NCBI RefSeq assembly: GCF_000178855.1
Contig: NZ_ADVG01000001.1
Location: forward strand, 744,001-808,000
Reading direction: 5' to 3'
Origin: Ktedonobacter racemifer DSM 44963
Lineage (GTDB): Bacteria; Chloroflexota; Ktedonobacteria; Ktedonobacterales; Ktedonobacteraceae
DNA length: 64,000 nucleotides
Shown: piece by piece, positions 4,992 to 33,588 of the stretch
Numbering within the stretch: position 1 is the stretch's first letter
Layout of the letters: each line of letters starts with the position of its first letter
Translations under genes and position numbers: made by a program
Notes under the pieces: model-generated
What the model was told of the DNA's origin: nothing
The model's input: only the letters and a program-made list of their open reading frames with translations
The model's database searches: none

Positions 4992-6389
4992 GTGTCACAG
5001 AAAGAGCTACATCTCGACTATACCCACAAACAGCGTGGTGTCTTCTCATCTTTGCTTGCGTATATGCACAATCCACGCGATCTCGTTTCCTACACCCCGA
5101 TTATCTTTGTTACCATTGCCATGTTTGTGGGCACATCCTGGCAACTCTTTCTCCCCAAAAGCGATCCCGCGCGCTATCAGTGCTATGCCCTGTCGTTCTG
5201 GTTCGGTGGCGATGCGCTCAAACGCCTGCCAGTTGAGCAGTGCGCCTTTCTACAAGGGAGCATCCTGCAGGCGCCTTTTCATATGCTGCCCCTTGAATAT
5301 CCGCCGCTTACCCTCATCCCCTTCTCGCTGGCACTCCTGGCTCCCCTCTCCTACTATCAATTTGTCTTCGCCTTCTTGATGTCGCTCGTAGCCTTCCTTA
5401 TCTACTGGCTCCTGCTACGCTATGGACCCCGCAATTCCGCGCTTACCTGCGCTTTCTATCTACTCATTGGAGCTATCGCGACGACTCAAGTGCGCTTCGA
5501 CATCCTGCCCGCGGCGCTTACCCTGGTGGCCTTGATCGCCGCTGAGCGCAAACATTGGACTATGGCCTACCTTGCCCTGGTCATCGGGACGCTCCTAAAG
5601 CTCTATCCCCTGCTCTTGCTGCCAGCCTTCTTTATCGCGGAACAACGCACCCTGGGACGCTTCCACCAACCTCCAACTGGTCTCAAGCCACGTGATATCC
5701 CGCGCCAGCTCTGGCTGACCCTACGCGAATTTCGCCGCTGGTCATGGCGCAACTGCTTGCTCTTCCTGGCTTGCCTGGTCGTTCTCACCGGCGGCTTTGC
5801 GCTGTTAAATTTTGATGGGGCCGTTCTCAGCCAGCTCAGCTACTTCTTCAAGCGCCCTCTCCAGGTAGAGGCAAGCGGCAGTTCTCTCCTCTGGCTTGCC
5901 AGCCGCTTTGGCGTTTCGTTCAGGGTTGTCTATGACTTTGGTTCGCTCAATATGGATAGCGCGCTGGGTGACATCGTCTCCAAGTTAAGTACGCTGGGCC
6001 TGGTCCTTGGCTACGCATATACGCTCTACTTGCAGTGGCGCGGCAAACTCAGCCTGGGACAAACGCTGATCGCGCTCCACCTGGTCTTTATCACGACTGG
6101 AAAGGTATTCAGCCCCCAGTACTTGATCTGGCTCCTGCCACTGCTGGCCTATGTCTACTCTGCGGAGGGGCTCTGGCTCTTCTGCTGGGGTACCATTTCA
6201 GCTCTGACGACCTTCATTTATGCCTACCTCTATTCTCGCTCGCCTGATATCATGCAAGTGCCGGGCTTTTTTGAGTGGGTCGCGCTACGCAATCTGCTCT
6301 TCGTCCTGTTAACCCTGGTCTACCTTGCCAACTGGTTCAGGATACGCGAGACGCAGCACGTAACGGAGGCCCAGGTCATGCGCTCATAG
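4992..6389 (+). CDS. Polytopic GT87/DUF2029-type glycosyltransferase
   Basis: A 465-residue membrane protein with about ten hydrophobic segments. The pattern (PLEYPPLTLIPFSLALLAPL around residue 100, VRFDILPAALTLVALIAAE around 165, KLYPLLLLPAFF around 205) fits DUF2029/GT87 polyprenyl-phosphate-mannose-dependent transferases, which add sugars to lipid or glycan acceptors outside the membrane. GTG start chosen because a GGAGAGG motif lies 11 bases upstream and the sequence is hydrophobic only from residue 35. Its 3' end overlaps the convergent epimerase gene by six bases. Acceptor and donor cannot be read from sequence. Confidence 0.75.
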   Translation: MSQKELHLDYTHKQRGVFSSLLAYMHNPRDLVSYTPIIFVTIAMFVGTSWQLFLPKSDPARYQCYALSFWFGGDALKRLPVEQCAFLQGSILQAPFHMLPLEYPPLTLIPFSLALLAPLSYYQFVFAFLMSLVAFLIYWLLLRYGPRNSALTCAFYLLIGAIATTQVRFDILPAALTLVALIAAERKHWTMAYLALVIGTLLKLYPLLLLPAFFIAEQRTLGRFHQPPTGLKPRDIPRQLWLTLREFRRWSWRNCLLFLACLVVLTGGFALLNFDGAVLSQLSYFFKRPLQVEASGSSLLWLASRFGVSFRVVYDFGSLNMDSALGDIVSKLSTLGLVLGYAYTLYLQWRGKLSLGQTLIALHLVFITTGKVFSPQYLIWLLPLLAYVYSAEGLWLFCWGTISALTTFIYAYLYSRSPDIMQVPGFFEWVALRNLLFVLLTLVYLANWFRIRETQHVTEAQVMRS

Positions 6390-7409
6390 CTCGCGCATGC
6401 CCTGGCTTAATTTCTGCTCCCGCAAGTACCAGCGCACACTCTCCTCGATCCCGCGGGTAATGTCATACGCAGGCACAAAATCCAGTTGCGCGCGGGCCTT
6501 CTCCAGCGCAAAATACTGATCACGTCCAAAAAGCGTGACGCCATAGGTCGTCAAGGGCGGCGGCCCCACACGACCCGGTCCAGGCAGGCCCCAGAGCTTT
6601 TCCGCCGCCCACGCCGCGCCATATGTTGGCCAGTAGGGAAGATGCCAGCGAATAGGCCTTGCTCCCAGGTAGCTGGCGATCAACTGAAAAACCTCCTCTT
6701 GCGTGACGCGCCGATCATCAACCAGGGTATAGGCCTCCCCAAGCACCTGCGTCCCGGCTTCGACAGCCTGGATCATACCCTGGGCCACGTCGCGTACATA
6801 TATCGCGGGCAGAATGTTCTGTCCTGTTCCGAAGATAACGCCCCGTCCCGTCTGGATCAGTCCTGCCAGGCGACCAAAGCTGGCCTGGTCGCGTGGACCA
6901 TAGATCCAGCCAGGGCGCACAATCACAATCGGTGCCTTCCGCTCCCCTGCCAATCGCAACAAGGCCAACTCTGCGGCAACCTTGCTGCGACTATAGAAGT
7001 TATTCTCCGCGTGCAAGGGATGCTCCTCGCTGACCTTCCCAAACAGGTGATGCCCATAGACTGTAATCGAGCTCGTATGGACAATGCACCTGACCCCAGC
7101 CCCCAGTGCGGCTTTCACCAGGTTGATCGTTCCCTGTACATTGACCTCATAATACTCTTTCTCAATGCCCCAGGGCCCCGTCCGCGCCGCTGTGTGATAG
7201 ACATAGCGCACGCCATGTACGGCGCGTCTCAACGAGAGGGGATCGCAGATATCACCAGAGCATATTTCCACCTGCTTGAGGGAGTTGAGGTGAGTGCGAT
7301 CCTCGGCTGGCCGTACCAGGGCGCGCACCTCGTTCCCGCGCTCCAGCAGCATCTCCACCAGGTGTCCTCCCAGAAATCCAGCTCCGCCAGTTACCAGTAC
7401 TTTAACCAT
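6384..7409 (-). CDS. NAD-dependent epimerase/dehydratase family protein
   Basis: A 341-residue extended short-chain dehydrogenase. The Rossmann motif TGGAGFLGG starts at residue 7, the active-site pair is Tyr139 and Lys143 (YSRSK), and the HTSSITVYG strand supplies the conserved Ser. This set is typical of nucleotide-sugar epimerases and the 3-beta-HSD branch. The neighbouring convergent glycosyltransferase makes a role in sugar or glycolipid modification plausible, but the substrate is not determinable. The IscB element ends only about 30 bases upstream of its start codon, so insertion has probably replaced its native promoter. Confidence 0.85.
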   Translation of the reverse strand: MVKVLVTGGAGFLGGHLVEMLLERGNEVRALVRPAEDRTHLNSLKQVEICSGDICDPLSLRRAVHGVRYVYHTAARTGPWGIEKEYYEVNVQGTINLVKAALGAGVRCIVHTSSITVYGHHLFGKVSEEHPLHAENNFYSRSKVAAELALLRLAGERKAPIVIVRPGWIYGPRDQASFGRLAGLIQTGRGVIFGTGQNILPAIYVRDVAQGMIQAVEAGTQVLGEAYTLVDDRRVTQEEVFQLIASYLGARPIRWHLPYWPTYGAAWAAEKLWGLPGPGRVGPPPLTTYGVTLFGRDQYFALEKARAQLDFVPAYDITRGIEESVRWYLREQKLSQGMREL

Positions 7410-7460
7410 TACGCTCCCTTTCCACCACCAGAAAATAGCGCCATGCGGGTGCCCTTGTCT

Positions 7461-8750
7461 TTAGACATGGGGAGGAGCATGGCGCACCCCTTTCTGTTTA
7501 TACTCATAGCCATCAGCTCTTTGCACACATCGTATATATTTGGGGTGGATGTCGACGTTCCCAAGCCGGAACGAAGGACGATGGCGAATGGCAATTCGTC
7601 CTTCAAACCTTCCTTTGGGGCTGATGGCTTTGATCAGATCACCCGTTTGATAGCCAAGAAACTTCTTTTTGCGCTCTTTGTGTTGCTTCGGGAATCCATA
7701 TTTATCAGTCGTGCACATTTGTCTTTTCCCTTGGCCTGTCGCAAGAATATGCAATGGCACGATTCCTTTCTGGGAAAGTCCAGCAGGGGTACTCTTGCCC
7801 ACACAAGCGGCATCGAGCCAATGCGTTTTTGCTAGCCTTCTTGTGGTGCGATTGTACTTTGTTAAGCCGCCACTTCCGCACTCGACAGTCAATCCAAACC
7901 TCTTGAGCCGTTCCAATAAAGCCAATCGCGTGGTATTGACGGCACTGGCATCCCTCAGTGGCTTTTTGACCTGCGCCAAAATCCGCTTGAGCACCTCAGG
8001 CTTTTTTGCAAGGAACACGCGAATATCCTGCGTGCCTTTGGCAGTATTGCACGGTTCACAGGCCAGGGTAAGATTGCTTATTCTCTTTGTGCCACCGTTG
8101 GCACGAGGATGAATATGCTCAATCTGCAAAGGAACGTTTTGCGCACCACAATACGCACAAGCCCGTCCCCATTTTTCGAGCAAGTATTCCCTGATTTCAT
8201 AGCCTTGCAGCGTGCCTTGTTGGTATTCCACGCCTGCGATATTGGGATTCTCTATCAATTGCATATCAAACTTCACAAGCTCCTGACTGAGAGCTGCAAT
8301 AGGAGCATAGCGACACAAGCGAGCTACCCACGTGAGGATATTGGCAAGGCGACTTTCCAATGAGGGTGGCAACCACCCTTTCTTCCTCCGTCGATTCTGA
8401 AATCGTGGTTTACGATAGCGTGTGTTGCGGTTGCGTCGGCTACGACGAACCGTACGACGACGCTCTAAGCTATCTTTGACAGCGTGCCCTCGATGCTCAA
8501 GTTCAGCCGCGAAGATTACCTTCCCGTTGGCATCATTGACCAGGGCAATCCCTGTGGTTTTGCTTCCAGGATCAAGCTTGAGCCGCAAAGGTTGGACCTC
8601 TGGCTGCTCAACCACACGCTTAAGCACAATCGTAAAGGGGTATCTGCGATACACAGCAGCTTTGCCTTGCGTGAGTAAGCGCCGCGCCTGCGCTGGATGT
8701 ACCGGATTAAGTGGTTTGTAATCACTATCAATCACAAACGCGTTGCTCAA
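7461..8750 (-). CDS. iscB: IscB RNA-guided nuclease (Cas9-ancestor family)
   Basis: A 429-residue protein with the complete IscB architecture: N-terminal PLMP domain (PLNP at 13-16), RuvC-I (LDPGSKTTGIAL, Asp60), an Arg-rich bridge helix (about 97-124), RuvC-II (LSQELVKFD, Glu157), an HNH domain with CAYC and CEPC zinc knuckles and catalytic His212 (IEHIHPRANGG), RuvC-III (HWLDAAC, His310/Asp313), and a basic C-terminal region of TAM-interacting type. All catalytic residues look intact. The TTG at 8748-8750 is chosen because AGGAGG lies six bases upstream and the protein then begins as the family does; the longer frame to 8825 reads into the RNA region. Known for the family: cleaves double-stranded DNA guided by omega RNA. 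Confidence 0.93.
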   Translation of the reverse strand: MSNAFVIDSDYKPLNPVHPAQARRLLTQGKAAVYRRYPFTIVLKRVVEQPEVQPLRLKLDPGSKTTGIALVNDANGKVIFAAELEHRGHAVKDSLERRRTVRRSRRNRNTRYRKPRFQNRRRKKGWLPPSLESRLANILTWVARLCRYAPIAALSQELVKFDMQLIENPNIAGVEYQQGTLQGYEIREYLLEKWGRACAYCGAQNVPLQIEHIHPRANGGTKRISNLTLACEPCNTAKGTQDIRVFLAKKPEVLKRILAQVKKPLRDASAVNTTRLALLERLKRFGLTVECGSGGLTKYNRTTRRLAKTHWLDAACVGKSTPAGLSQKGIVPLHILATGQGKRQMCTTDKYGFPKQHKERKKKFLGYQTGDLIKAISPKGRFEGRIAIRHRPSFRLGNVDIHPKYIRCVQRADGYEYKQKGVRHAPPHV

Positions 8751-8756
8751 GTTGAG

Positions 8757-9022
8757 CCTCCTATTGCTAGGGTAATGGTTGCCTCGACAAGGATAGAGGG
8801 CGGTACTTTTCCCTGAGCACTGCATAAAACCCCGTTTTGCCGTTTAACCCAGGAATTCTAGAGCTACAGGCTGGCACGCACCCGTAGGTAGGAACTTGAA
8901 CACTTTACCTCTATCGTAGCCCGATAGCTTTGATGATTGTATCCATCAGCTCTGGCTGAGTCTGGTCAGGTCCAGACTCGCTTTCACAAGCCCCTGCCTT
9001 TAGACATGGGGTACCTGACTTA
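8757..9022 (-). ncRNA. Candidate omega RNA of IscB
   Basis: IscB omega RNAs are encoded just upstream of iscB with the guide at the 5' end. This non-coding stretch is dense in hairpins on the minus strand: a CCCC...GGGG stem near the 5' end, a perfect 8-bp stem GAGTCTGG/CCAGACTC (8958-8979), CTATCG/CGATAG (8914-8930) and several smaller ones, ending at the iscB ribosome-binding site. The guide should lie just beyond about 9022, in flanking DNA. Exact ends and guide are inferred. Confidence 0.65.
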
Positions 9023-9241
9023 CATATTCCTCTATACACATCTAACGTACAACTCAGGCTTTTTTATCACCCTCTGCCCGCTACACAATACAGTAGTAAA
9101 AACCTTACTTAAACTACCAAAGGTAGATATAGGACAAATGACACTTGCAAGAGCCAAAAGTGATACTCATACTTTTCTCAAAGACTCTACAAAAAGTCGT
9201 GATGTGCATTGGCAGTCATAGACTATCAGAAAGGACAAAGG

Positions 9242-9772
9242 ATGATGTCACGCCTATATTCTCTCCGCCTTGCCAGCTTGATCGGACTCTTGGGCTCTGG
9301 ACTTGTAATCATTGGATTCTTCTTGCCGGCTCGCTTTGTTACAGTGATATTCCACCTACAGCCGCCATTATATTCAACAGATTCGTTTTGGAGCATGCTC
9401 GTTAATACAGTAACTGGTGGTACCATACATGATTTGTCTTCGGAAATGGCAATCGGATCATTTTTGCTCTCTATTCTCGTTCCGCTATTGACCTTTCTTA
9501 CCGGGCTTTTCGGTAAAAGGAAGCGTGCCATTTTCATCCTCAGCTTGATATTTGCCACCCTGGGGCTCCTAGAATTTCTAGCCTCTTCGCTACTTCTCCT
9601 ATCCTTCTCGTTCCCTCATACCGGGACCGAGATCCATACTTCTGGTCCTGGCTTCTGGCTGATGCTTATCGGCTTTCCTATATGTATTGGGAGTAGCATC
9701 GCCCACATTGTGCTCTTCACGCCACATGGAGCGAACTTTCAGTCTAACGCTGGTCTACCTGGCCCTGTATGA
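9242..9772 (+). CDS. Hypothetical four-helix membrane protein
   Basis: About 176 residues with four clear membrane segments (LASLIGLLGSGLVIIGFFLP; a segment from FLLSILVPLLTFLTGLF; FILSLIFATLGLLEFLASSLLLL; FWLMLIGFPICIGSSIAHIVLF). No conserved catalytic motif was seen. The ATG at 9242 is preferred because AAAGGACAAAGG lies directly upstream. The gene is alone and is followed by two hairpins. Not recognised as a named family. Confidence 0.6.
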   Translation: MMSRLYSLRLASLIGLLGSGLVIIGFFLPARFVTVIFHLQPPLYSTDSFWSMLVNTVTGGTIHDLSSEMAIGSFLLSILVPLLTFLTGLFGKRKRAIFILSLIFATLGLLEFLASSLLLLSFSFPHTGTEIHTSGPGFWLMLIGFPICIGSSIAHIVLFTPHGANFQSNAGLPGPV

Positions 9773-9780
9773 GATAGGTG

Positions 9781-9853
9781 GGGGCACTCGCTCTTTCTCC
9801 AACGTGCCCCCTCTTCACACTAGTCTGGAGGAAACGCCTATGATTTCCTCCAG
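9781..9853 (+). terminator. Two tandem hairpins
   Basis: GGGGCAC (9781-9787) pairs with GTGCCCC, followed by CTGGAGGAAA (9825-9834) with TTTCCTCCAG (9844-9853). They lie directly after the membrane-protein gene and before the aldehyde dehydrogenase promoter region. Confidence 0.6.
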
Positions 9854-9973
9854 GCTGGTCGTTGATCTATGACGTGGCATATAATAAAAGATCTCTATTC
9901 AGAAAATCCAGTAATCACACTTAGATATACGCAGTCGTATGTGCTTCGCACAGAAGAGAAGGAGGGGACACTC

Positions 9974-11719
9974 ATGTCCACACTCACACCGGCTGGTTCG
10001 CCACAATTTCCCACCATCGCCGACAAGGTCTCAACCCATGAGGAGATGGATCAGGCCATCCACGCACTACAGGAGCACAAGGACACCTGGGTCGCGACTA
10101 CGCTCCAGCAGCGTGTCTCCCTCCTCACAGAATTAATTCAGAACATTGCCGCTCTCGCGCCACGCTGGGTTGAGGCCTGTAGTCAGGCCAAGCATCTCTC
10201 GCCTCAGTTGACCGGCGAGGAGTGGAGCATGGGCCCCTGGCCCATTCTGCGCAACCTGCGCCTACTACGCCAATCCCTGTTAGATATCGAGGCCTTTGGT
10301 CGCCCACGCATCCCCGGTCCCGTCACAACTCGCGATAACGGACAGGTGGTGGCCCAGGTCTTCCCCACAAATAATTATGATCGCATCTTCTTTACAAACA
10401 TGACCGCCGAGATCTGGATGGAGCCAGGCGTGAGCGCCGAAACCCTCCCACAGACACAGGCCCTTATTTATCAGGAAGGCCAAGCCCAGCAGTCAGGCAT
10501 GGTAGCTCTTGTGCTGGGCGCGGGCAATGTCTCCTCTATCGCGCCTACAGATGTGCTCTATAAGCTTTTGGTGGAGAACCAGGTTGTCCTGCTCAAGATG
10601 AATCCGGTCAACGCCTATCTGGGACCCCTGATTGAAGAGAGCTTTCAGCCACTTGTCAAGCGAGGCTTTCTGCGTGTGACCTATGGCGGAGCCGAGGAGG
10701 GTTCATATCTCTGCGATCATCCCGGCATTGAAGAAATTCACGTCACCGGTTCCGATAAGACCTTTGATGCCATCGTCTTTGGCCCTGGCAGCGAGGGAGC
10801 GCGGCGCAAGGCGGAGAAGCAGCCCTTACGCACAAAACGTGTCACAGGCGAGCTAGGCAATGTCAGTCCCGTCATCGTCGTCCCTGGTCCCTGGAGCGAG
10901 GCTGATCTGCGCTACCAGGCCGAGCATATTTTCTCGATGCTCACTACCAATGCTGGCTTCAACTGCAATGCAACACGTGTGATTATTACGCATAAAGGAT
11001 GGGGCCAGCGCGAGGCTCTTTTAAACAAGCTGCGCGAGCTGATGGCGGCCCAACCTGCACGCCAGGCCTACTATCCAGGCGCGCAGCAGCGTATGCAGGG
11101 CTTTGTTGAGGCCCATCCTCAGGCCGAGCGCTTTGGGGCGACGGACAACGGCAATCTTCCCTGGACGTTGATTGCCGATGTCGATCCTACGGCTGAAAAT
11201 GATATCTGCTTTACCACGGAGGCCTTCTGTAGCCTCTTCGCGGAGACGGCCCTGGAGGCCGACGGTGTGGTTGACTACATCCAGAAGGCCGTCAATTTCG
11301 CCAATGAGGATCTCTGGGGGACACTCAACGTCACGCTGCTTGCCCATCCCAAATCGCTCAAAGATCCCGCCGTCTCCACGGCTGTGGAGCAAGCCATCGC
11401 CGATCTGCGCTATGGAACGGTCAGCCTGAACTACTGGGCTGGCACCAGCTTTACGCTGGGCAGCACGACCTGGGGCGCATATCCCGGCCACACCATCGAT
11501 GATATCCAGTCTGGCGTTGGCGTTGTACATAACACATACATGTTCTCGCACCCACAGAAAAGCGTGGTACGCGCTCCCTTCAAAAGCACGCCCACGCCTC
11601 CCTGGTTCGCGACCAGGGGCCAGGTCCTTACCAAAACCTTTCCACTACTCGCAGACTTTGAGGCCCAGCCCTCTCCCTGGAAGGTTCCCTCCATCGTGCT
11701 CGCGGCGCTTGGCCGCTAG
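9974..11719 (+). CDS. Aldehyde dehydrogenase superfamily protein
   Basis: A 581-residue NAD(P)-dependent aldehyde dehydrogenase-like enzyme. The general base Glu293 lies in GELGNVSP and the nucleophile Cys331 in TTNAGFNCNATRV, replacing the usual GQxC context; the cofactor segment around VVLLKMNPVNA is also recognisable. It is longer than the usual 480-500 residues because of about 80 extra N-terminal residues. The ATG at 9974 is chosen because AAGGAGGGG precedes it; upstream residues look non-coding. It overlaps the convergent HdeD-like gene by four bases. Substrate unknown. Confidence 0.85.
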   Translation: MSTLTPAGSPQFPTIADKVSTHEEMDQAIHALQEHKDTWVATTLQQRVSLLTELIQNIAALAPRWVEACSQAKHLSPQLTGEEWSMGPWPILRNLRLLRQSLLDIEAFGRPRIPGPVTTRDNGQVVAQVFPTNNYDRIFFTNMTAEIWMEPGVSAETLPQTQALIYQEGQAQQSGMVALVLGAGNVSSIAPTDVLYKLLVENQVVLLKMNPVNAYLGPLIEESFQPLVKRGFLRVTYGGAEEGSYLCDHPGIEEIHVTGSDKTFDAIVFGPGSEGARRKAEKQPLRTKRVTGELGNVSPVIVVPGPWSEADLRYQAEHIFSMLTTNAGFNCNATRVIITHKGWGQREALLNKLRELMAAQPARQAYYPGAQQRMQGFVEAHPQAERFGATDNGNLPWTLIADVDPTAENDICFTTEAFCSLFAETALEADGVVDYIQKAVNFANEDLWGTLNVTLLAHPKSLKDPAVSTAVEQAIADLRYGTVSLNYWAGTSFTLGSTTWGAYPGHTIDDIQSGVGVVHNTYMFSHPQKSVVRAPFKSTPTPPWFATRGQVLTKTFPLLADFEAQPSPWKVPSIVLAALGR

Positions 11720-12309
11720 TCATAGCCATGGCGTGGTGGTGCCTCCTGAGGCACCGCCTCGCGTGTCCTCGCTGGCTGCAAGGCCTGGAAAAACGTCAAG
11801 ATGCCATACACAATGGCGTAGAGACCAATAAAGCGCACATCTGTAACCACATTTGGCGAACTCTTCAGCAGCAGATAGCCGCCTATGATCAAGGAAAACA
11901 CCGCCGGGAGCAGCGAAAGCCAGTCAGTACGGAGACTACGCGTACGGAAGAAGGCGAGCATTTGCGTGACACCGACGATAATAGCCCAGATGGCAAAGGC
12001 ATAGATGAGCGTTATCTTGGTGAGTCCAGGCGCAAAGATGATCAGGCCCGCGATAACCAGGCCCGCGACACCACTCAAGGCGATCAGCCACCAGCGAGGA
12101 TTCTGCCTTCTCTTACTGATGCCAATTGCCAGTGCGGCGATCCCATCGATGATGCCCAGCGTGGCAAAGGCGGCAAGAAACAGGAAGAAGGAGATTCGTG
12201 GCATAAGAGCGAGCACAATGCCAAAGACGACAATCATGATCCCACGGAACACCAGCCATAAACGCCTCTGCCAGGTCATGGGTTCAGCGTGTGCCCTTCC
12301 TGGACGCAT
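11716..12309 (-). CDS. HdeD-like (DUF308) membrane protein
   Basis: A 197-residue protein with six hydrophobic helices in three repeating pairs, typical of DUF308/HdeD. The pattern RGIMIVVFGIVLALMP followed by short polar loops such as ISKRRQNPRW is characteristic. Family members are linked to acid or general stress, but the molecular role is unknown. An alternative start is Met11 (12279), as the first ATG lacks a clear ribosome-binding site. The C-terminal 20 residues are polar and charged. Confidence 0.8.
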   Translation of the reverse strand: MRPGRAHAEPMTWQRRLWLVFRGIMIVVFGIVLALMPRISFFLFLAAFATLGIIDGIAALAIGISKRRQNPRWWLIALSGVAGLVIAGLIIFAPGLTKITLIYAFAIWAIIVGVTQMLAFFRTRSLRTDWLSLLPAVFSLIIGGYLLLKSSPNVVTDVRFIGLYAIVYGILTFFQALQPARTREAVPQEAPPRHGYD

Positions 12310-12445
12310 AATAGTTGATCAAAGCATAACCATCTATTGCAATGATTATCCTTCTCACTTTAACCTACGCCTGTTTACCAAACAGCGGACTAGGCGGGAG
12401 GATGCACTACGAGCATCCTATGCACCTCTCTCTACTGAGAGATGT

Positions 12446-13915
12446 TCACTCGTGAGATGATTCCAGGAACATCTCTGGGGGATCCCAGAAGCTCAACTGG
12501 ACGGGAGGCCCGGCATCCTGGATCCTCTGCTGATTCTGCTGTTTCCACGCTTCATGCCGCGTCATGAGGAGCGCCTTGACCTCCGAGGTCGAGCGACATG
12601 CCGCCAGTTTCCGATCCCCCCAGCGTCCCGCGAGCGTCTGTGCGGCTTTGCGGTCGGCCTGGTCTGCGTAACCACAGACCAGGCACTTGAAGGTTTTCTG
12701 GTTCGGCCGATTAGCGCGATCGACATAATGGCAGCGGGGGCATTCCTGAGAGGAATAGGCGGCTCGGACCGTGTGGGCTGCCATGCCCTGTTTGGCGGCG
12801 GCCCAGGCCAGCTGCTCTGGGATATGCCCCAGGTGAGAAGCATACAGATAACTGTTCATCACCCTTGCTTTGAAGCGCATCGAGGCCACATTGAGGTCCT
12901 CATAAATGAGTCTGGCATCTCGATGATCTTTGACCAACGCATTGACCGCCCGGTTGATCTCTTGCTTGACGTGACGGCTCAAGCGTTGCGACGTTTCAGA
13001 ACTTGTCGAAGGAAGCTTGCCCTTTGGGACGCCTTTCTTTTCCAGACAGGCTCGCAGTTTCGCCTTGCGGCGACGCTTTTCCCGATCGTGCTTGTGCTGT
13101 CGGGCCATCTTGCCATGAAAACTGCCATACGCTTTATTGGTGGAGGTCGTGAGGAAATGGGCAATGCCCACATCGACGCCTACTGTAGGGGCGTCAGGCT
13201 TGGTTTGAAGAGGAACGTCCTCGTCAAAGGAGAGCGTCAGCCACCAGACTCCATTGCGCTTGTGAAGTGTTGTGGATGCATTGAGCGTGCGGCCTTCGAG
13301 TGCTCGTTTGTGATAGGAGGCGAGTTTGACTGGGACTCGAAGCGGATTCCCGACATCTAAGGTGGACACGCGCAGCCAGTAGTCGAACGTGGAGTCCTCC
13401 GACTTCTCGAGCACCACCACGTTGACATTGGCTTGGATGACTGGCACACGCAGCACAGGGAGATCCCATTCGGTCCAGGTCGGTTCGCGGCGTTTGAAGG
13501 CGGACATCCGGCCTTCCGCCTGAGCCTTGGCCTTAGCCTGAGCGTAATCAGCCACATCTTCCAGGTATGCCTGATAGGCGTTCGCTCGATTCGTGCGAAC
13601 GCTTTTGGCAATGCCTGCGGCTTGCTGTATTGCCACTCGATGCAAGCGGTCGGAAAGATCGGTTTTGAAGACGGTTTCTTGGTACTTGTCCGGGCTTGTC
13701 TCGGCCTCGCAAAACAGGGTGGTGTACTGTTGGCACAGCGGCAAGTAAACCGCCACAAGCTGATCGAGCGCCTCAAGTTTGCCAGGATTGGCCTCAATGA
13801 GACGGATATGGGTCACCGCTCGAGTGATGGTCTGCTTCGTCTTCTTTTTGCGCTTGCGCTTTTTTTTCTCATCAAGCGAGGCTTTTTGGGGCTTCTTGCT
13901 CACGAGCGGGTCCAT
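12446..13915 (-). CDS. tnpB: IS607 TnpB, RNA-guided nuclease
   Basis: A 489-residue TnpB, close relative of Cas12 ancestors. The very basic start (KKKRKRKKKTKQTITR) is followed by the Wed/Rec region, then RuvC-I with Asp248 (VGVDVGIAHFL), RuvC-II with Glu339 (LIYEDLN), a zinc finger of CPRC (392-395) and CLVC (411-414), and RuvC-III Asp421 (ADQADRKAA). The catalytic triad is complete, with Arg-Lys-Ala-Ala in place of the common Asn-Ala-Ala. It overlaps tnpA by 44 bases. The guide RNA (reRNA) is expected from the 3' end of this gene outward, around 12310-12600. Known role: cuts the donor joint so the element is retained. Confidence 0.92.
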   Translation of the reverse strand: MDPLVSKKPQKASLDEKKKRKRKKKTKQTITRAVTHIRLIEANPGKLEALDQLVAVYLPLCQQYTTLFCEAETSPDKYQETVFKTDLSDRLHRVAIQQAAGIAKSVRTNRANAYQAYLEDVADYAQAKAKAQAEGRMSAFKRREPTWTEWDLPVLRVPVIQANVNVVVLEKSEDSTFDYWLRVSTLDVGNPLRVPVKLASYHKRALEGRTLNASTTLHKRNGVWWLTLSFDEDVPLQTKPDAPTVGVDVGIAHFLTTSTNKAYGSFHGKMARQHKHDREKRRRKAKLRACLEKKGVPKGKLPSTSSETSQRLSRHVKQEINRAVNALVKDHRDARLIYEDLNVASMRFKARVMNSYLYASHLGHIPEQLAWAAAKQGMAAHTVRAAYSSQECPRCHYVDRANRPNQKTFKCLVCGYADQADRKAAQTLAGRWGDRKLAACRSTSEVKALLMTRHEAWKQQNQQRIQDAGPPVQLSFWDPPEMFLESSHE

Positions 13916-26376: not shown

Positions 26377-27282
26377 TCAAAGGTCGATTAGAGCTTGGTA
26401 AAAAGCTTTCGTATCAGCTCTTGCAGGCAGTCCCGCGACCTGACCATCACCAAGTTCAACGATATTCCATGCGCCATCTCTCTTTTTTGCAACATCCATA
26501 GTAAAAAATCGACTTTGAATCTTCTGCACAACATGGTCAAACAGGTCAATCGGGGGGAACTCATACTTGTCATTGCCATAGTTCCCCTCCTCCCAATACG
26601 GGGTTGAGGAGATGATCTGCCCATCAAGAACGAACAGCCGGAACTCCTTAATGAGAGGCATCCCACTCTTAGAATGTGTTGTTAATGGTTCAAACTCGAC
26701 AAACTCACGGAAGACCAGGCCTTCATTCAAATCTGCGCCTTGTAGTTGTAAGAAGCGTGTGACCACTCGTTCAACGCTTTGTCTGTCAGAGGCTGAAGGA
26801 ATGTAGCATGCTTCACCCCACTCATGTTTTCTCGACTTGACAAAATCCTTGACGATTACAGGCCTCCCAGCAAACTGATGCAGCGCCGCCATCACTGCAT
26901 CTATGGAGATATCAGGTCCTGTCTTGAGCCAGATCGATCTAGGTGTGAACCCTTCAATCAGGTGATAAGATCCTGGCAAATAATGGCAATGGGTATAGGC
27001 CGCAGGAGTATTGACCAGCCAAAGGCCTTTTTCTGCAAGAGTTGTATACAGACGCTCATATACATGGGGCTTGAGCATCCACCCGCGATAAATAGCCAGT
27101 TCGCCTGTCGGCGCAGGTTCTACCTTACGTACTGCACGTGCGGCGTTCTCTTGCTCGACCAAGGCTTCAATATTAATTAGCGAATAGTTAAGGTGTAAAC
27201 TCTCTACAATGCTCGACTCAGCCTCATAGGCACTGTCGGGAGAAAGTGGATTCCAGTAATTAGAACAGAAAATGATGCGCAT
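26377..27282 (-). CDS. ATP-grasp domain protein
   Basis: About 302 residues. The N-terminal RIIFCSNYWNPLSPDSAYEAE is typical of small ATP-grasp enzymes of the DUF4343/R2K type. Nucleotide-binding and metal elements are visible as VIVKDFVKSRKHEWGEACYIP, LVFREFVEFE, EFRLFVLDG and WNIVELGDGQVAGLP. Reaction unknown; such enzymes ligate acid and amine or modify peptides. The ATG at 27282 is chosen (AAGGGGG upstream), since the first 36 residues of the longer frame overlap a terminator. Before insertion of the recombinase element it lay directly downstream of rtcB. Confidence 0.7.
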   Translation of the reverse strand: MRIIFCSNYWNPLSPDSAYEAESSIVESLHLNYSLINIEALVEQENAARAVRKVEPAPTGELAIYRGWMLKPHVYERLYTTLAEKGLWLVNTPAAYTHCHYLPGSYHLIEGFTPRSIWLKTGPDISIDAVMAALHQFAGRPVIVKDFVKSRKHEWGEACYIPSASDRQSVERVVTRFLQLQGADLNEGLVFREFVEFEPLTTHSKSGMPLIKEFRLFVLDGQIISSTPYWEEGNYGNDKYEFPPIDLFDHVVQKIQSRFFTMDVAKKRDGAWNIVELGDGQVAGLPARADTKAFYQALIDL

Positions 27283-27352
27283 CCATACCCCCTTTTCCTT
27301 TTTGCTCCTGTTAGCCAATACTTCTCTACTACCGTAATAAAAGAAGTAGCAA

Positions 27353-27376
27353 GAGAGGGCATTGTGCTGCCCTCTC
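27353..27376 (-). terminator. Original rtcB terminator
   Basis: GAGAGGGCA (27353-27361) pairs with TGCCCTCTC (27368-27376), followed on the minus strand by a T-rich stretch. It lies just after the stop codon of the displaced rtcB 3' end. Confidence 0.65.
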
Positions 27377-27397
27377 TGTCTCCTTAACAAAGAGTTT

Positions 27398-27480
27398 TTA
27401 CCCTTTTACGACGATGATGGGCTTCAAGCGCACGACCAGCTTCGCAAAACCGGCGTTGTGGACGACGTTGACGACTTGCT
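27398..27480 (-). pseudogene. Displaced native 3' end of rtcB (element junction)
   Basis: In the frame not used by the recombinase this segment encodes VVNVVHNAGFAKLVVRLKPI and then IVVKG-stop, which matches the last 25 residues of the intact rtcB (VVNTVHNAGLARLVVRLKPI...) with a few changes. It is the original rtcB end left behind when the element integrated. It is more GC-rich in codon choice than the end now attached to rtcB, consistent with being the host copy. Confidence 0.88.
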
Positions 27481-29562
27481 GGCGTCTTTGGATGTTTGAA
27501 CACCTGTGCCAACAAAAAGCGGTGAATAGGTGATTTTAATCCGATCCGAGACATCTTCCACGAGTGATCGTAACTTGATTGGCGACTCCTGTAGAAAACG
27601 ATTTAACTCGTCTCGGTGGATGTAGGTGCGCATTATGTCTTTTGTGCTGAACTCAACTTCGCCCTGCGAGATGGCTTCATTAAGTATACGCCAGGTCGTT
27701 ACCCTCAAGACTGCTACCAGTCTGTGCATCGTAAACCATTCATCCTCATACTGGCTCAGATCAACCACTTTCTGTTTCTTCTCTTTGAGGTAGCGCGTAA
27801 TCTCATCCCGATGGAAGATGAAGTGGGATGTAGCCATTTTCTGAGATTTAAGGTCACCGTTATGTACATGTAACATGAGTGAGTTCCTGTGTATGCCTGT
27901 GAGTTCCGACGCTTCGGAGATGGACAACCATTCCTGATCGGTCTCAACAGGGGGCAATGGTGGAGTCCCCTTTACATCGGGATGGACGTGTACTTTAACG
28001 CCCAACACATTGAGTACGTTGCGTTTCTCTTGGAAGGTCGCTTCGTGATATCTGCCACGCATGACATTGACGAATTCGATAAACTCCAACACGCGCTGCT
28101 GGTAGGTCGCAGTCAGGGCGGCGATACCGTTTGCCGCTTTGCATTCCGCTTCAAAGCGCTCTAATTGCTCAAGTTTTGCCTGAATGTCTTGGGCGATAAG
28201 CGAGCGCAGATACTCATTCTGTTGCTTGGCATGTTCCTGACTGGCGTGTTCGATAGCAAGTTTTAGCGCAGCAATCTGCTCCCTGCCAGTAGTATCCTCC
28301 AACAAATTGTTGATAGAGTTTTTAATCTCTGCTTCAATTGTGGCCTGTATAGGTTCGAGGCGCTCGAATAGGTGGCAGCAATCCTGCCAGACAGCAGGGT
28401 CAAGCAGTGACGTCCTGATGCGTTGGATATGCGGCTCGCATTGGTGTGGATTGGCATCGTAGATGCTGATATGCTTGGTGCAGCGATAGACTGGCAGTTT
28501 TTTATCCCATGCGGGCCTCATGCGGTAGCCGCAGATGGCACAGTAGACATGTCCGACAAGTAAGAAACTTTCTGGGTCGCGTGGCCGTTGGCTCTTTGTC
28601 TCGCGGTTAGTTGCCAGCTTGCGCTGCGCCCGCTCGAATAGTTCAGGTGAGACAATAGCGGGCATTGCGCCGGGAATAACTTTCTGGTCGGGATGCACAA
28701 TGTGCTTTGTCTTGCCGTTTTCCAGCAACACTCTCTTTTGTTTGCAGATGACGAGCGTGCCGAGGTTAGCTACATCTCTGAGGTATTGAGAGATGGTTCC
28801 GGTTGTCCAGGGGATCAACTTCGGCTTCCCATTCTCAAGCGCGGCCAGCTTTTTATCCCCGTTCAGCGGCTCTTTACGGGCTTCACGCGGCGTGCGGATG
28901 CCGTCAATCGTCAGCTTGTGGCCAATCTGTCGGATACTCATATCCAATTCTACAAACATCTCGAAGAGCGAGCGGCGCACGGCTGCTTCCTCGATGTTTA
29001 ACCCATAAAAGGTCTTGGTCTTATCTCCCCATTGCCAGCCATACGGAGGTGTTGATGTCGCCATCGGCAGCTCCAGCTCGTGACGCTTCTGCCAGTGGCG
29101 GTTGGCATACTCGTTGATCTTCTCGCGCTCGGACTCCGCACACCAGGCGAGCACGGAGCGGATCAATTTGCCAGTCAGTGAGTTGTCGATATTTTCGCTG
29201 ACACTTATAACTTCGCCGCCATATGACTCGATCTCCTGAAAGATCATAGCCGAGTGGACAAAATTGCGGCTGAAACGGCGCAAGTCCCAGACGATAATCA
29301 TATCAGCAACATGGTCGCGTATCATCTGACGGGCGAGGGTCAGCTTCCCGCGGTACGAATAATGGATATATCCGCTCTTTGCTTCAGCAAGGACGACAAT
29401 AACTTGTATATTATTCGCCTCAGCCCATTGGCGGCATCTTTCTTCCTGGTACTCCAGGCTCTCACCGTCCTGTTTCTGTCTTTCCGAGTTAACACGGCAG
29501 TAGATGATAGCGCGTTTGCGTTTGACAAATTCCTGTATAGCTTGTTGATCTTGCACTGACAT
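27424..29562 (-). CDS. Large serine recombinase (integrase), catalytic Ser apparently substituted
   Basis: A 712-residue recombinase: resolvase domain (1-150), recombinase domain (about 165-290), zinc ribbon (CAIC...C near 340), coiled-coil (about 400-460), then an unusual C-terminal part with two helix-turn-helix-like segments (WLSISEASELTGIHRNSLML and WFTMHRLVAVLRVTTWRIL), resembling excisionase-type HTH modules. In the family motif Y-x-R-V-S-S the nucleophile position holds Asn25 (YCRVNSERQ), with Ser26 next. The last 20 or so residues (from about SKDASK) are encoded by host rtcB sequence read in another frame, so the gene crosses the attachment site. Confidence 0.9.
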   Translation of the reverse strand: MSVQDQQAIQEFVKRKRAIIYCRVNSERQKQDGESLEYQEERCRQWAEANNIQVIVVLAEAKSGYIHYSYRGKLTLARQMIRDHVADMIIVWDLRRFSRNFVHSAMIFQEIESYGGEVISVSENIDNSLTGKLIRSVLAWCAESEREKINEYANRHWQKRHELELPMATSTPPYGWQWGDKTKTFYGLNIEEAAVRRSLFEMFVELDMSIRQIGHKLTIDGIRTPREARKEPLNGDKKLAALENGKPKLIPWTTGTISQYLRDVANLGTLVICKQKRVLLENGKTKHIVHPDQKVIPGAMPAIVSPELFERAQRKLATNRETKSQRPRDPESFLLVGHVYCAICGYRMRPAWDKKLPVYRCTKHISIYDANPHQCEPHIQRIRTSLLDPAVWQDCCHLFERLEPIQATIEAEIKNSINNLLEDTTGREQIAALKLAIEHASQEHAKQQNEYLRSLIAQDIQAKLEQLERFEAECKAANGIAALTATYQQRVLEFIEFVNVMRGRYHEATFQEKRNVLNVLGVKVHVHPDVKGTPPLPPVETDQEWLSISEASELTGIHRNSLMLHVHNGDLKSQKMATSHFIFHRDEITRYLKEKKQKVVDLSQYEDEWFTMHRLVAVLRVTTWRILNEAISQGEVEFSTKDIMRTYIHRDELNRFLQESPIKLRSLVEDVSDRIKITYSPLFVGTGVQTSKDASKSSTSSTTPVLRSWSCA

Positions 29563-29606
29563 AAATTTCTACCTCTTAATAAGGGGCAGCTCCATATCGC
29601 TAATAG

Positions 29607-31350
29607 TACTACAGCCCCACTTAAGGAAAAAATGTGGTAGGATCTCTCGGGGAGGAGAAGCCCATGACCACATCAGCTAGGATCGAGCAGGAACATCTAC
29701 AAGAAGAGGAGGCCCTACGCCGCATCACTGGTGCAGCCCAGGTGCTGGAAGAGCTTACCGCACGCTTGGGCAAGCACGTTCGCCGCGCGGAAGTCCGCTC
29801 ACGCCTGGAACGCTATCTCCGGGGTTTGTTGGCCCCCGTTGGGCGCAAGAATGGCTGGCAGATGGCCGAGGCTCTTGGGGAAGCCAATGCGCATGGGGTG
29901 CAGCGGCTCCTGCAAGAAGCGGAGTGGGATGAGCAGGCCCTACGCGATGAGCTGTGCAGGTACGTCATCGAGCACCTAGCAGGCGAACAAGGTGTACTGG
30001 TCGTCGATGAAACAGGCTTTCTCAAGAAGGGAAAGAAGTCCGCAGGGGTCGCCTCACAGTACAGCGGTGCGGCGGGGGGAACAGCCAACTGCCAGATTGG
30101 TGTCTTCCTGCTCTATGCGAGCTCCAAAGGCCAGGCATTCATTGATCGAGAGCTCTACCTGCCCCAGGAGTGGACCCAAGATCGGGTGCGCTGTCGAGAG
30201 GCGGGTATCCCCGAGGAGGTCGCTTTCGCCACTAAAGGCCAGTTAGCACAGCAGATGTTGGCGCGCGCCTTTGCTGCAGGGGTACCAGCACAATGGGTGG
30301 TTGGCGATACGATCTATGGCTCTGACGAACTGCGGTTGTGGCTGGAGGCACAGCACAAGCACGCTCTCCTGGCAGTCCCAGAAACACATCTGGTATGGGT
30401 CGCTGGTCGCCAACAACCTGTGGGCTTGCTCGCGGCGCTTTTACCCGCGTCAGCCTGGGTTGTGCTCTCCGCCGGCGAAGGCAGCAAGGGCGCGCGACGC
30501 TATGAATGGGCCTGGCTCCAATTGCCAGAGCGCGCGCGAGCAGGCCGCTGCCCAGGGCCGCTGGGTGCTGATCCGGCGCTCGCTCTCCGACCCGAGCGAG
30601 CGGGCCTACTATCGTGCGTCTGGGCCAGCAGAAACAACCTTAGCGGAACTGATAGCCGTGGCAGGGAGTCGCTGGCAAATTGAAGAGGGCTTTGAACAGG
30701 CCAAGGGCGAGGTTGGACTCGACGAGTATGAGGTGCGAACCTGGCGGGCTTGGCACCGCTACGTGACCCTGGCTCTGCTCGCCCATGCCGCTCTCGTCGT
30801 GATGCGCCGTAGCATCCAGGAGCAGGAAAAAAAAGCGGAGCCTGCGGCGAGCGCATCGAAGTGAGTGTACCAGAAGTGCGTCGCTTGCTGGCTGCGTTGG
30901 GCGCCTCGTCAGAAGAACAGCGCTTGCGCTTGCACTGGTCCACCTTTCGGCGGCGACACCAGGCAACGTCCAAGCGTTTGCATGCGCTGCGTCGTGCTCG
31001 TCAGGCTCCCTGCCCGCCTGCTCAGCTTCCAGCTCCGGTCCCTCTCTGTGGGCTGCCTCCCCTCACCGAGGCGGACTGGCAACGCATCACGCCGTTGTTA
31101 CCACCCCAGACCCCGCAGCGAGGCCGCAGAGCAGCGGATTATCACCGGATGGTGGAGGGTATGCTTTGGATTGTGCATACTGGCTCATCGTGGCGCGAAC
31201 TGCCAGAGCGATTCGGCCCCTGGGAGACGGTGGCCTATCACTTCTACCGCTGGGGCAAAGTAGGTCTCTGGCAGCGCATCCGAGAGGTCTTACTCCAGGA
31301 GGGGGCGCTGCCAGGTCCTGCTCTCTGATCATGTATGTGGGACTGTAGTA
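29607..31350 (+). mobile_element. IS701-like insertion sequence with 4-bp target duplication
   Basis: Terminal inverted repeats begin TACTACAG(C/T)CCCAC at both ends (29607 onward and 31350 backward), flanked by the direct repeat ATAG (29603-29606 and 31351-31354). It is nested inside the integrative element, next to its recombinase gene. The transposase is broken, so the copy is dead unless helped in trans. Confidence 0.85.
29664..31328 (+). pseudogene. IS701-like transposase, two frameshifts, fused to an IS5-type DUF4096 tail
   Basis: DDE transposase. The first Asp lies in VLVVDETGFLKKGKKSAGV, and later parts ([36 protein letters not shown] with the catalytic Glu) are typical of IS701. One frameshift falls in a GC-dinucleotide run near 30530-30540 and another in an A-run near 30825-30831. 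The last frame (30861-31328) first gives the normal IS701 end (VPEVRRLLAAL...WSTFRRRHQA) and then continues in frame into a full DUF4096 segment (LTEADWQRITPLLPP...WRELPERFGPWETV), which usually starts IS5-group transposases. Start ATG chosen after GGGGAGGAG. Confidence 0.85.
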
Positions 31351-31759
31351 ATAGGCCACGTTTTGCAATAGAGCGATCTTGATCAGCTTTTACGCCTAGT
31401 TAAAAGGAAGTTCTAAAGCCGTCATTATTTGCTCTCCGTGGGTTCTTGTTAAATGAGTTATCCTTCATACCATACAGCGTCACTCTAATGGAGCAGCCCC
31501 TCGTACCTACTACCACATGGGAATACCATTCTTAAGTAGAACACTTCTTACATTTCAATTCTCCTGTGCTGACAGGAGAATTGAAATGTATTACCCCAAT
31601 CCAAGAACATCGAGCATCAAAAAGCATGAACTTCAACAATTTTACACAGTCAAAGGCAGCAATGTCAATATTTATCATGCCAAACACCATTTTAACCTAT
31701 ATTTGACATAAAATCAAAAGATACACTATAATAAGCAACAAAAATAAGGTGGCGCAACC
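31351..31759. other. Non-coding interior of the integrative element with a perfect hairpin
   Basis: No gene was seen. A perfect 18-bp stem with GCTG loop occupies 31550-31589. It is AT-rich compared with the host genes and ends at the excisionase-like gene's promoter region. It may belong to the element's regulatory region. Confidence 0.5.
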
Positions 31760-31945
31760 TTGGAAGAATTTTATACTCTGCAAGAGATAGCAGACATGCT
31801 CAAAATACACATAGAGACAGTCCGAGAACTCGTACGAAAGAAGGAGTTGCCCGCGATTAAGGCCAGTCGGCGAGACTACCGTGTGCGCAGATCCGCCTTT
31901 GAAGAGTTTCTGCGCAAGCGGAGCACTACTGGAGATGATAACTGA
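31760..31945 (+). CDS. Excisionase-like helix-turn-helix protein
   Basis: A 61-residue MerR/Xis-type DNA-binding protein: YTLQEIADMLKIHIETVRELVRKKELPAIKAS is the winged helix-turn-helix and YRVRRSAFEEFLRKR the C-terminal helix. TTG start with AAGGTGG eight bases upstream. Lying at the opposite end of the element from the serine recombinase, it could act as the directionality factor that favours excision, although similar proteins also serve as simple regulators. Confidence 0.8.
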   Translation: MEEFYTLQEIADMLKIHIETVRELVRKKELPAIKASRRDYRVRRSAFEEFLRKRSTTGDDN

Positions 31946-32036
31946 TCAGGTTTTATTTATACGAGGCGCTGAAAAACAGCACTCTAACAATGGCAGTTTA
32001 TTTTCACTTATTTATACGAGATTGCAAGATATGAAC

Positions 32037-32080
32037 AAGTCCTCACCGATGGCATATAAGAGTCCGGTGAGGACTTTTTA
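32037..32080 (+). terminator. Terminator after the excisionase-like gene
   Basis: AAGTCCTCACCG pairs with CGGTGAGGACTT (32065-32076), followed by TTTTA. It also lies downstream of rtcB on the other strand and may stop both. Confidence 0.75.
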
Positions 32081-32130
32081 TAGCACAGTCCGATCTCATG
32101 CAACAAATGGATGAGATCAAGCGCTCTGCT

Positions 32131-33588
32131 TTACCCTTTTATAACAATGATAGGTTTCAAGCGCACAACTAGGCGTGCCAGGCCGGCATTGTGGACAGTA
32201 TTAACAACCATCTGGGCGTCTTTATAAGCAGTGGGAGCCTCCTCCGCCAGCAGGTTCTTGCTGTGAACGCGGACGGTGACGCCCTTGGCTTCAAGCTGCG
32301 ACAAGAGATCCTTGCCGGTGATGGACTTTTTGGCCGCGGTACGGCTCTGGCGCCGACCCGCACCATGGCAGCATGAGCCGAAGCTCTGCTCCATCGAGCC
32401 TTGCGCGCCAACCAGGACGAATGAGTAACGCCCCATGTCGCCTGGGATGAGCACCGGCTGCCCCACGGCACGATACTTCTCCGGCATGGCGGGATGCCCC
32501 GGAGGGAAGGCCCGCGTCGCCCCCTTGCGGTGGACGCAAACGCGCTTCTTCTCGCCGTCGATCTCGTACTCTTCCATCTTGGCGATGTTATGGCACACAT
32601 CATAGACCATCGGCATATCCTTGGCCCGCGCCTTGCGCCCAAAGACGCTGGAGAAGGCATCGCGTACACCGTGCATCAACAACTGCCGGTTGGCCCAGGC
32701 GAAGTTCGCCGCGCAGGCCATGGCGCCGAGATAGTCCTGCCCCTCCTTTGAATGAATGGGCATACACGCCAGTTGCCGGTCCGCCAGGTGATAGCCGTAC
32801 GCCTTCTGCTTCGCCTCGGCGATTTTGATATAATCCTCCGCGATCTGGTGGCCAAAACCCCGGCTCCCGCAGTGGATGGTGGTGACAATCTGGCCCAGTT
32901 GCCCGATGCCCAGAGCCTCAGCGGCCTCCTGGTCATAGATATGGTCCACGTACTGCACCTCGGCGAAGTGGTTCCCCGAACCCAGGCTCCCAAGCTGGCC
33001 AACGCCACGCTCCAGGGCCTTACGGCTCACGGCCTCGGGCCTGGCCCCCTTCAGGCAGCCATTCTCTTCGGTGACCTCCAGGTCCTCCTCGACACCATAT
33101 CCCTCTTCAACGGCCCAGGCCGAGCCACGCTTCATGACCTCGAGCATCTCACGCTCAGTCAGGCGCCGCATGCCATAGCCACCCACGCCCGAGGGCAGGG
33201 TATTGAAGAGCGCGTCCGCGAGCCTATCCGCCTTGCCCTTGATCTGGTCGCGCACAAGGTCAGTTGCGAGCAGGCGCACACCACAGTTAATGTCAAAGCC
33301 AATCCCACCCGGGGAGACAACGCCGTGCTCGGCATCGGTCGCGGCAACCCCGCCCACGGGGAAGCCATAGCCCCAGTGAATGTCAGGCATGCCCAGCGAG
33401 TACCCGACGATACCCGGAAGCGTGGCCACGTTCGCCACCTGTGTCAGGGCATTGTCGGACAGTATCTGCTGAATTAGTTCATCGTCGGCATATACAATGC
33501 CCGGCACGTTCATCGCGTCATTATACCGCTTGGGTATCTGCCAACGGTTAGGATCAATCCGTTCCAATGGGATATTCGCATTGCCCAT
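32131..33588 (-). CDS. rtcB: RtcB RNA-splicing ligase
   Basis: A 485-residue GTP/Mn-dependent ligase that joins 2',3'-cyclic-phosphate (or 3'-phosphate) ends to 5'-OH ends. The active-site Cys102 lies in GFDINCGVR, the GSGNHFAEVQ loop binds metal and GTP, HCGSRGFGHQ provides metal His residues, and His408 in HGAGRRQSR takes up GMP. All are intact. The final ~28 codons come from the integrated element and differ from the displaced native end at 27398-27480, yet preserve the conserved VVRLKPIIVIKG terminus. Lies 25 bases after the Rnl5-type ligase gene, in the same operon. Confidence 0.96.
   Translation of the reverse strand: MGNANIPLERIDPNRWQIPKRYNDAMNVPGIVYADDELIQQILSDNALTQVANVATLPGIVGYSLGMPDIHWGYGFPVGGVAATDAEHGVVSPGGIGFDINCGVRLLATDLVRDQIKGKADRLADALFNTLPSGVGGYGMRRLTEREMLEVMKRGSAWAVEEGYGVEEDLEVTEENGCLKGARPEAVSRKALERGVGQLGSLGSGNHFAEVQYVDHIYDQEAAEALGIGQLGQIVTTIHCGSRGFGHQIAEDYIKIAEAKQKAYGYHLADRQLACMPIHSKEGQDYLGAMACAANFAWANRQLLMHGVRDAFSSVFGRKARAKDMPMVYDVCHNIAKMEEYEIDGEKKRVCVHRKGATRAFPPGHPAMPEKYRAVGQPVLIPGDMGRYSFVLVGAQGSMEQSFGSCCHGAGRRQSRTAAKKSITGKDLLSQLEAKGVTVRVHSKNLLAEEAPTAYKDAQMVVNTVHNAGLARLVVRLKPIIVIKG

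Follow-up and report, generated by a model that had tools for sequence, protein, structure and literature searches.

A serine recombinase-type element in the 3' end of rtcB in Ktedonobacter racemifer and a probable exchange of gene ends between recombinase and target

In a window of 64,000 nucleotides from the 13.7-Mb genome of Ktedonobacter racemifer DSM 44963 (G000:C10:744001-808000; positions below are relative to this window), the rtcB gene appears to have two ends. An intact rtcB is followed by a 4.73-kb element carrying the gene of a large serine recombinase homologue, and at the far side of the element there is a second, diverged copy of the rtcB 3' end. The locus therefore raises the question of which end is native, how the other was acquired, and why the recombinase gene runs into one of them. 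The analysis favoured the explanation, with a probability of roughly 80%, that the element was inserted into the rtcB 3' end by a serine recombinase whose attachment site (attP) lies within its own gene, and that rtcB and the recombinase gene trade 3' ends in the exchange.

The two rtcB tails and the empty site

The order of genes on the minus strand was archease (Pfam, 141 bits), RNA ligase (Pfam RNA_ligase, 92.8 bits), rtcB (32131–33588), the element, and an R2K ATP-grasp gene (26377–27390, identified by Pfam and by comparison with the genome G002, below). The rtcB gene encodes 485 aa and matched the Pfam RtcB profile to its last position (582 bits). Its final 81 nt (32131–32211, minus strand) read MVVNTVHNAGLARLVVRLKPIIVIKG-stop, and the short copy (27398–27478, minus strand) reads QVVNVVHNAGFAKLVVRLKPIIVVKG-stop. 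The two tails were 70% identical and differed at 17 codons, 12 of them synonymously; thus, the tail of the intact gene kept 21 of 26 residues with 30% of its bases changed. The short copy was recovered independently as a second rtcB match in a search of the whole genome (79% identity, E = 8.5e-6), and is therefore not a chance match.

The native tail was identified by comparison with G002, a genome of the same genus, where an uninterrupted rtcB (97% aa identity) is followed by the ATP-grasp gene (95% aa identity) with nothing between them. Over the last 81 nt, G002 was 93% identical to the short copy (six codons differed, only one of them non-synonymously, L to F), against 70% for the tail of the intact gene; the preceding 600 nt of the rtcB body were 94% identical. 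A second genome of the genus, G003, gave the same order (body 94%, short copy 85%, tail of the intact gene 75%). Among 23 genomes of the same family with a readable rtcB 3' end, there was no match above 75% to the tail of the intact gene; five of the 28 other family genomes were unusable for this comparison (G013, at a contig end; G004, with fragments only; G005, G017 and G018, without a match). These identities indicate that the present tail of rtcB came with the element, and that the gene is composed of a native body and a supplied end of 27 codons, stop counted. In G001 and G003, which have single copies of rtcB, there was no ATP-grasp match in the rtcB flanks examined, so that both are silent on the adjacency of the two genes.

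The initial annotation of this locus had proposed a diverged rtcB 3' copy beginning at 27398, with the native end left behind and a replacement end supplied. Both proposals were borne out, and the displaced copy is now delimited as 26 residues plus stop. It had also anticipated relatives in which an uninterrupted rtcB directly precedes the ATP-grasp gene, and one such genome was found. The contrary case, an element-free relative with a second, short rtcB copy, did not occur in G001, G002 or G003, the same-genus genomes searched with rtcB. The suggestion that rtcB serves as the host attachment site (attB), with attL and attR at the ends of the element, gains support from the empty site and from the displaced and supplied tails, while the position and homology of the serine recombinase suggest that it made the insertion.

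A common core abutting both copies had been proposed as well, and here the outcome was divided. A shared block does exist, on the plus strand, at attR (32212–32223, 12 bp, CTGGGCGTCTTT) and at attL (27479–27489, 11 bp, CTGGCGTCTTT), but the two are not identical, the latter being 1 nt short. Joining the rtcB body to the native tail at the 9-bp core GGCGTCTTT produces a frameshift; an extra base is needed on the rtcB side, and G002 has it at its empty site. The same difference of 1 nt causes the recombinase gene (27424–29562, minus strand, 712 aa) to enter the displaced tail out of frame. A crossover in the CAG beside the tail was considered and dropped, because the shared block permits no exact placement.

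The short copy might instead be a relic of duplication, homologous recombination or another element, with the recombinase a bystander. In G024, old rtcB 3' fragments do lie downstream of rtcB with no recombinase match, but the displaced tail and ATP-grasp gene closely match the empty site of G002, and the end of the recombinase coincides exactly with the junction in the window as well as in G013 and 16 protein records (see below), making this origin very improbable.

The supplied tail includes a residue of the active site. The penultimate residue of the window RtcB, Lys484, aligned with Lys480 of RtcB from P. horikoshii (1uc2/4dwq, 481 aa). According to the available text of PMC3973293, Lys480 is among the residues reported to interact with the guanine base, and the K480A mutant is inactive alone and rescued by Archease. 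Hence, the element takes away and resupplies an active-site residue.

RtcB tails on related recombinases

A homologue search with the recombinase, for which 120 of 267 proteins were listed, was supplemented with P0121, the single new protein among 20 from a search with the C-terminal region; this gave 121 proteins, including that of the window. Sixteen of the 121 (P0002–P0008, P0010, P0012, P0013, P0016, P0018–P0020, P0080 and P0121) terminate in an RtcB tail that is read in frame up to the final residue (87–97% identity over 29–30 residues). No RtcB-tail match arose in 20 shuffles of all proteins. Pfam RtcB matched 14 of the 20 members of alignment A1 (E up to 0.1), reaching the last profile positions in the example shown; the match to P0003 scored 21.9 bits over 33 residues, which is below the 27-bit cut-off for whole proteins. 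Immediately 5' of the junction, the KDA codons of recombinase and rtcB agreed, in the same frame.

Phylogenetic analysis of 57 proteins (those among P0001–P0060 with at least 560 residues, P0021 left out), from which the tails had been cut off, placed all 14 tail-bearing rows within a single group of 20 with a support of 100/100; the other 37 rows had no tail. P0009, which belongs to the same group, stops before the tail. A further case concerned G013, a genome from another genus, where a partial recombinase open reading frame (ORF), cut by a contig end, finishes in frame ...QASKDAQKIVDVVHNAGLAQLVARLKPLIVVKG, reading SKDAQKIVDVVHNAGLAQLVARLKPLIVVKG-stop. The rtcB gene of G013 is cut short at residue 449, where a different contig ends, and its junction lies outside the assembled sequence. 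Other serine recombinases ending in rtcB, which the initial annotation had expected, therefore exist as 16 proteins in frame and the partial ORF of G013. Its statement that the recombinase runs out of frame into host rtcB is correct for the window; however, out-of-frame reading proved to be the exception, given the 16 proteins that carry the tail in frame, and apart from the window it seems to apply to P0015 alone.

No recombinase relatives were found in IMG/VR, and among phage (224) and plasmid (162) records there were only distant recombinases, which all stayed below 60% identity and aligned over less than 80% of the query. A scan of genome contigs produced two loci without an rtcB tail, in Thermogemmatispora carboxidivorans and Ktedonosporobacter rubrisoli. 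Scans of the class (47 genomes) and the phylum (400 genomes) returned loci that were checked for the tail, and among these there was no rtcB-tailed recombinase beyond G000 and G013; for the phylum this is a weak negative, since that scan scored two candidates per genome and missed G013.

Taken with the G013 case, the 16 in-frame tails suggest an attachment site within the recombinase gene itself. Before integration, the 3' end of this gene would have held attP and, within it, the code for an additional RtcB C-terminus. On strand exchange, rtcB and the recombinase gene, both of which would cross the site in the same frame, would each receive the other's 3' end and keep a complete ORF. A 61-aa excisionase-family protein, encoded at the other side of the element, would set the direction of recombination. 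In the window, where the element is predicted to be immobile (see below), rtcB would then be permanently dependent on the supplied tail with its active-site lysine.

State of the copy in the window

Without a later insertion sequence (IS) of 1.75 kb, the element measures approximately 3.0 kb. The IS (29605–31350, plus strand) comprises an apparently frame-broken DDE_5 transposase gene and a DUF4096 fragment by Pfam; it lies 42 bp upstream of the recombinase start codon, and a 100% identical copy of 1746 bp is found at G000:C8:66564-68309. The recombinase contains, in order, Resolvase, Recombinase and zinc ribbon (Zn_ribbon_recom) domains, all above the Pfam cut-off, and all three were matched in 20 of 20 members of alignment A1 (E up to 0.1).

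HTH_17 was likewise matched in all 20 members at this threshold. In the window protein this excisionase-like domain occupies residues 545–595 (27778–27930, minus strand) and scored 23.3 bits against TIGR01764 ('excise'), under the cut-off of 28.8. A structural model of P0003 contained two successive winged-helix-like units (544–593 and 608–658) in blocks of predicted local distance difference test (pLDDT) score 75–86, with the same order of strands and helices in both; the second unit had only a weak Pfam match to HTH_17 (E = 0.052), and a second, diverged excisionase-like domain was placed from this model at residues ~609–659 of the window protein (27586–27738, minus strand). The RtcB tail of P0003 was modelled without confident structure (683–720 below pLDDT 50; mean for the model, 61.5). 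HTH_17 domains such as those in the C-terminal part of the window recombinase (27586–27930) were also observed in P0022 and P0060, which lack the rtcB tail. A recombinase with C-terminal HTH_17 domains may represent a natural fusion of recombinase and excisionase type. Engineered fusions of integrases with recombination directionality factors have reportedly been made, and the built-in domain of the window recombinase might be likened to these.

The 61-aa protein (31760–31945, plus strand; Pfam HTH_17, 58 bits) scored 49.0 bits against TIGR01764, above the curated cut-off of 28.8, and so belongs to the excisionase-family DNA-binding proteins. Homology thus supports the Xis-like gene predicted at the far side of the element, and the protein is a candidate recombination directionality factor. 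It is preceded by a promoter-like TTGACA-18-TATAAT (31703–31732, plus strand, 12/12 consensus), while a divergent TTGACA-18-TAAAAT (31639–31668, minus strand, 11/12 consensus) faces the recombinase across the IS; both are consensus matches only, and seven promoter-like sites were found where 3.7 were expected (standard deviation 2.2). A near-perfect inverted repeat (ACATTTCAATTCTCCTGT...ACAGGAGAATTGAAATGT) was noticed at 31551–31590, just past the leftward promoter-like site.

The motif CRVS of relatives, or RVS in TP901-1 integrase, reads CRVN in the window recombinase, where codon 25 (29488–29490, minus strand) is AAC, encoding Asn, at the expected position of the catalytic serine. This serine was present in 111 of the 112 proteins scored, and the window protein alone had Asn. 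Nine of the 121 proteins were left unscored; four of them lacked the N-terminus and five varied at other motif residues, these five also having Ser. The window protein is a large serine recombinase by descent, judging from its domains, and is not classed as an active integrase. This copy of the element is predicted to be immobile on its own because the catalytic codon specifies Asn, the IS parts the gene from the divergent promoter-like site, and the tail is out of frame. Two decayed recombinase relatives elsewhere in the genome (L062 7357-9187 and L063 7150-8146) had no rtcB tail.

These features bear on a further alternative, in which rtcB is interrupted and switched on by excision, as in the skin element. 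A serine recombinase within a conserved gene is in keeping with such regulation; the best NCBIfam model was XisF of the fdxN element, albeit at 77.5 bits and far under its cut-off of 375, and a different recombinase splits rtcB in G007 (see below). However, the window rtcB is a complete frame of 485 aa that extends to the end of the profile, so that excision would repair nothing, and the recombinase is predicted to be dead. Regulation of this kind was regarded as scarcely credible for the window.

Other targets and comparison with known systems

A different target was implicated in G030, an order-level relative of the window genome. Its recombinase, 58% identical to P0016, was fused in frame to a PALP-type pyridoxal phosphate (PLP) enzyme within a single frame of 905 aa, containing Resolvase, Recombinase and zinc ribbon domains followed by PALP from profile position 29 to the end. 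The enzyme, assigned to PALP by Pfam, is presumably threonine dehydratase-like. The missing 5' piece stands alone at G030:C21:47999-48145, 49 kb upstream on the same strand, and matches the orthologue in G031 up to the codons at which the fused part starts. Sequence positions thus suggest an insertion of ~49 kb in the PALP-type gene (G030:C21:47999-98457; L077, L099-L101, L106, L110). Only 81 bp in from the end marked by the 5' piece, the opposite strand carries a complete paralogue with 71% identity, and the inserted DNA therefore seems to bring a whole replacement gene. In Ktedonosporobacter rubrisoli, the recombinase relative (L073 5992-8364) ends over the gene of a helix-turn-helix regulator on the opposite strand (Pfam HTH_31), and sister lineages accordingly seem to use other targets.

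Several points weigh against the favoured explanation. The tail was in another frame in the window protein and also, judged by protein residues, in P0015; the excess of in-frame cases (16/18, nominal P = 1.7e-6) does not rest on independent observations, because the rows are related. Three members of the tail-bearing group (P0011, P0014 and P0017), together with P0021, which was aligned but stood outside the tree, have other tails, and the target is therefore not fixed. The tail-bearing relatives are known as protein records alone, and both ends were recovered for no rtcB element other than that of the window. The empty site is known from one genome, G002; the call of Ser to Asn depends on a single base; the excised circle and the joined attP were both deduced and neither was seen.

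Some of these points suit an ordinary gene-restoring island, whose rtcB end only keeps the host alive and whose shared frame is an accident of descent without function. Restoration of the target gene is a common strategy, as far as the available text of PMC12884075 and PMC4383910 goes, and the out-of-frame tails of the window copy and apparently of P0015, the lack of confident structure in the modelled tail and the other tails within the group are in accord with it. The 16 proteins that keep the tail in frame to its very end, together with residues important only to RtcB, argue against an accident, as do the KDA codons that match those of rtcB in the same frame and the in-frame fusion of the G030 relative to a different target. 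Such an island is compatible with the favoured explanation, from which it differs only in whether the shared frame was selected; absence of selection was considered a serious but somewhat doubtful option. A bolder extension of the end-swapping explanation would be that an integrase lineage of soil bacteria carries a recoded RtcB tail with the active-site lysine as its own final 30 residues and trades it with the rtcB of the host at every move, that tail and excisionase-like domains are functional in the recombinase (e.g., as a sensor of the integration state), and that sister lineages fuse in frame to other targets and repay the host with a whole gene. This was thought unlikely.

Other disruptions of rtcB, and other C-termini, were observed in passing. 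P0011 and P0014 share the C-terminus SxDATTP[VI]R[IM].F.LS, which may derive from yet another target gene. In G007 (L055, G007:C1:4494000-4511000), ~6.9 kb of DNA with a serine recombinase-like gene of another kind (687 aa; 30.4 bits against Pfam Resolvase) interrupts the middle of rtcB (4719-13145) at the HCGSRGF|GHQ codons, with both rtcB halves open; this insertion is a candidate for a skin-like element whose excision would restore rtcB. In G024, two decayed rtcB 3' fragments (L051 10389-10553 and 3013-3312) lie ~20 and 28 kb downstream of the intact gene (L052 15240-16694), with biosynthetic-type genes between them and no recombinase match, and are possibly scars of earlier events at rtcB. 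On contig G004:C115 (L054 1413-1861), archease is followed immediately by a frame-broken rtcB piece (residues 411–485); the search of this genome gave no complete rtcB. In G019 (L049), rtcB extends across three frames (4–119, 121–245 and 243–485), reflecting frameshifts or sequencing errors.

If the favoured explanation holds, the locus is a natural case in which the reading frames of integrase and target coincide at the attachment site, and each integration would exchange protein C-termini between integrase and target. It would also show a route by which a mobile element gains possession of the catalytic end of an RNA-repair enzyme of its host, an end that the host consequently cannot simply lose. 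A divergence of 30% of bases with 21 of 26 residues kept would fit the need of serine integrases to tell the arms of attP from those of attB. Given that the target gene is conserved, active relatives might be of use for DNA delivery into hosts of the Ktedonobacteria type.

Several known systems resemble this locus in part; statements on the papers cited here refer to their available text. In SCCmec (staphylococcal cassette chromosome mec) and the enterococcal cassette chromosome, mobilised by CcrAB, the 3' region of a conserved RNA-enzyme gene, rlmH, likewise serves large serine recombinases as attB, and the element comes to be flanked by attL and attR (PMC6222049). The difference is that here the target is rtcB and the attachment site appears to lie in the recombinase's own frame; moreover, the window recombinase scored 50.5 bits for CcrB and 34.6 bits for CcrC, each against a cut-off of 900. 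The skin element in sigK also has a large serine recombinase gene (SpoIVCA, CD1231) adjoining the 3' part of its target (PMC5025042), but sigK is broken until excision, whereas rtcB is intact and of full length with the element in place.

In gene-restoring islands of the TIGER/Islander type, a regenerated target and a displaced fragment mark the ends (PMC4383910). The same arrangement was found here, with regenerated target and displaced fragment at opposite ends and an uninterrupted target in a relative, G002. Similarly, the attP of phage Sleepyhead, beside int, matches 91 bp of the 3' end of an acyl-CoA dehydrogenase gene and is said to rebuild it (PMC13313380). No sharing of an in-frame tail with the integrase is described there, and the tail supplied here is recoded, at 70% identity. 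That source mentions only phage-encoded RtcB, and a large survey names other favourite target genes, rtcB not being among the terms looked up in it (PMC10083194). Among the open-access literature matches listed, there was no description of rtcB as an attachment site, which is weak evidence of absence, nor of an integrase that shares its C-terminus in frame with its target. In the integration-dependent immunity of mycobacteriophages, attP is again inside a reading frame, and integration alters the C-terminus of the protein (PMC9934374). There, a repressor loses its degradation tag; here, the frame crossing the junction is that of the recombinase, which would gain a complete tail from the target gene. 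Restoring islands, serine recombinases at gene 3' ends, attP within a reading frame and recombinases beside split genes are all, therefore, already known; relative to these systems, it is the in-frame swap of 3' ends between a recombinase and rtcB that would be new.

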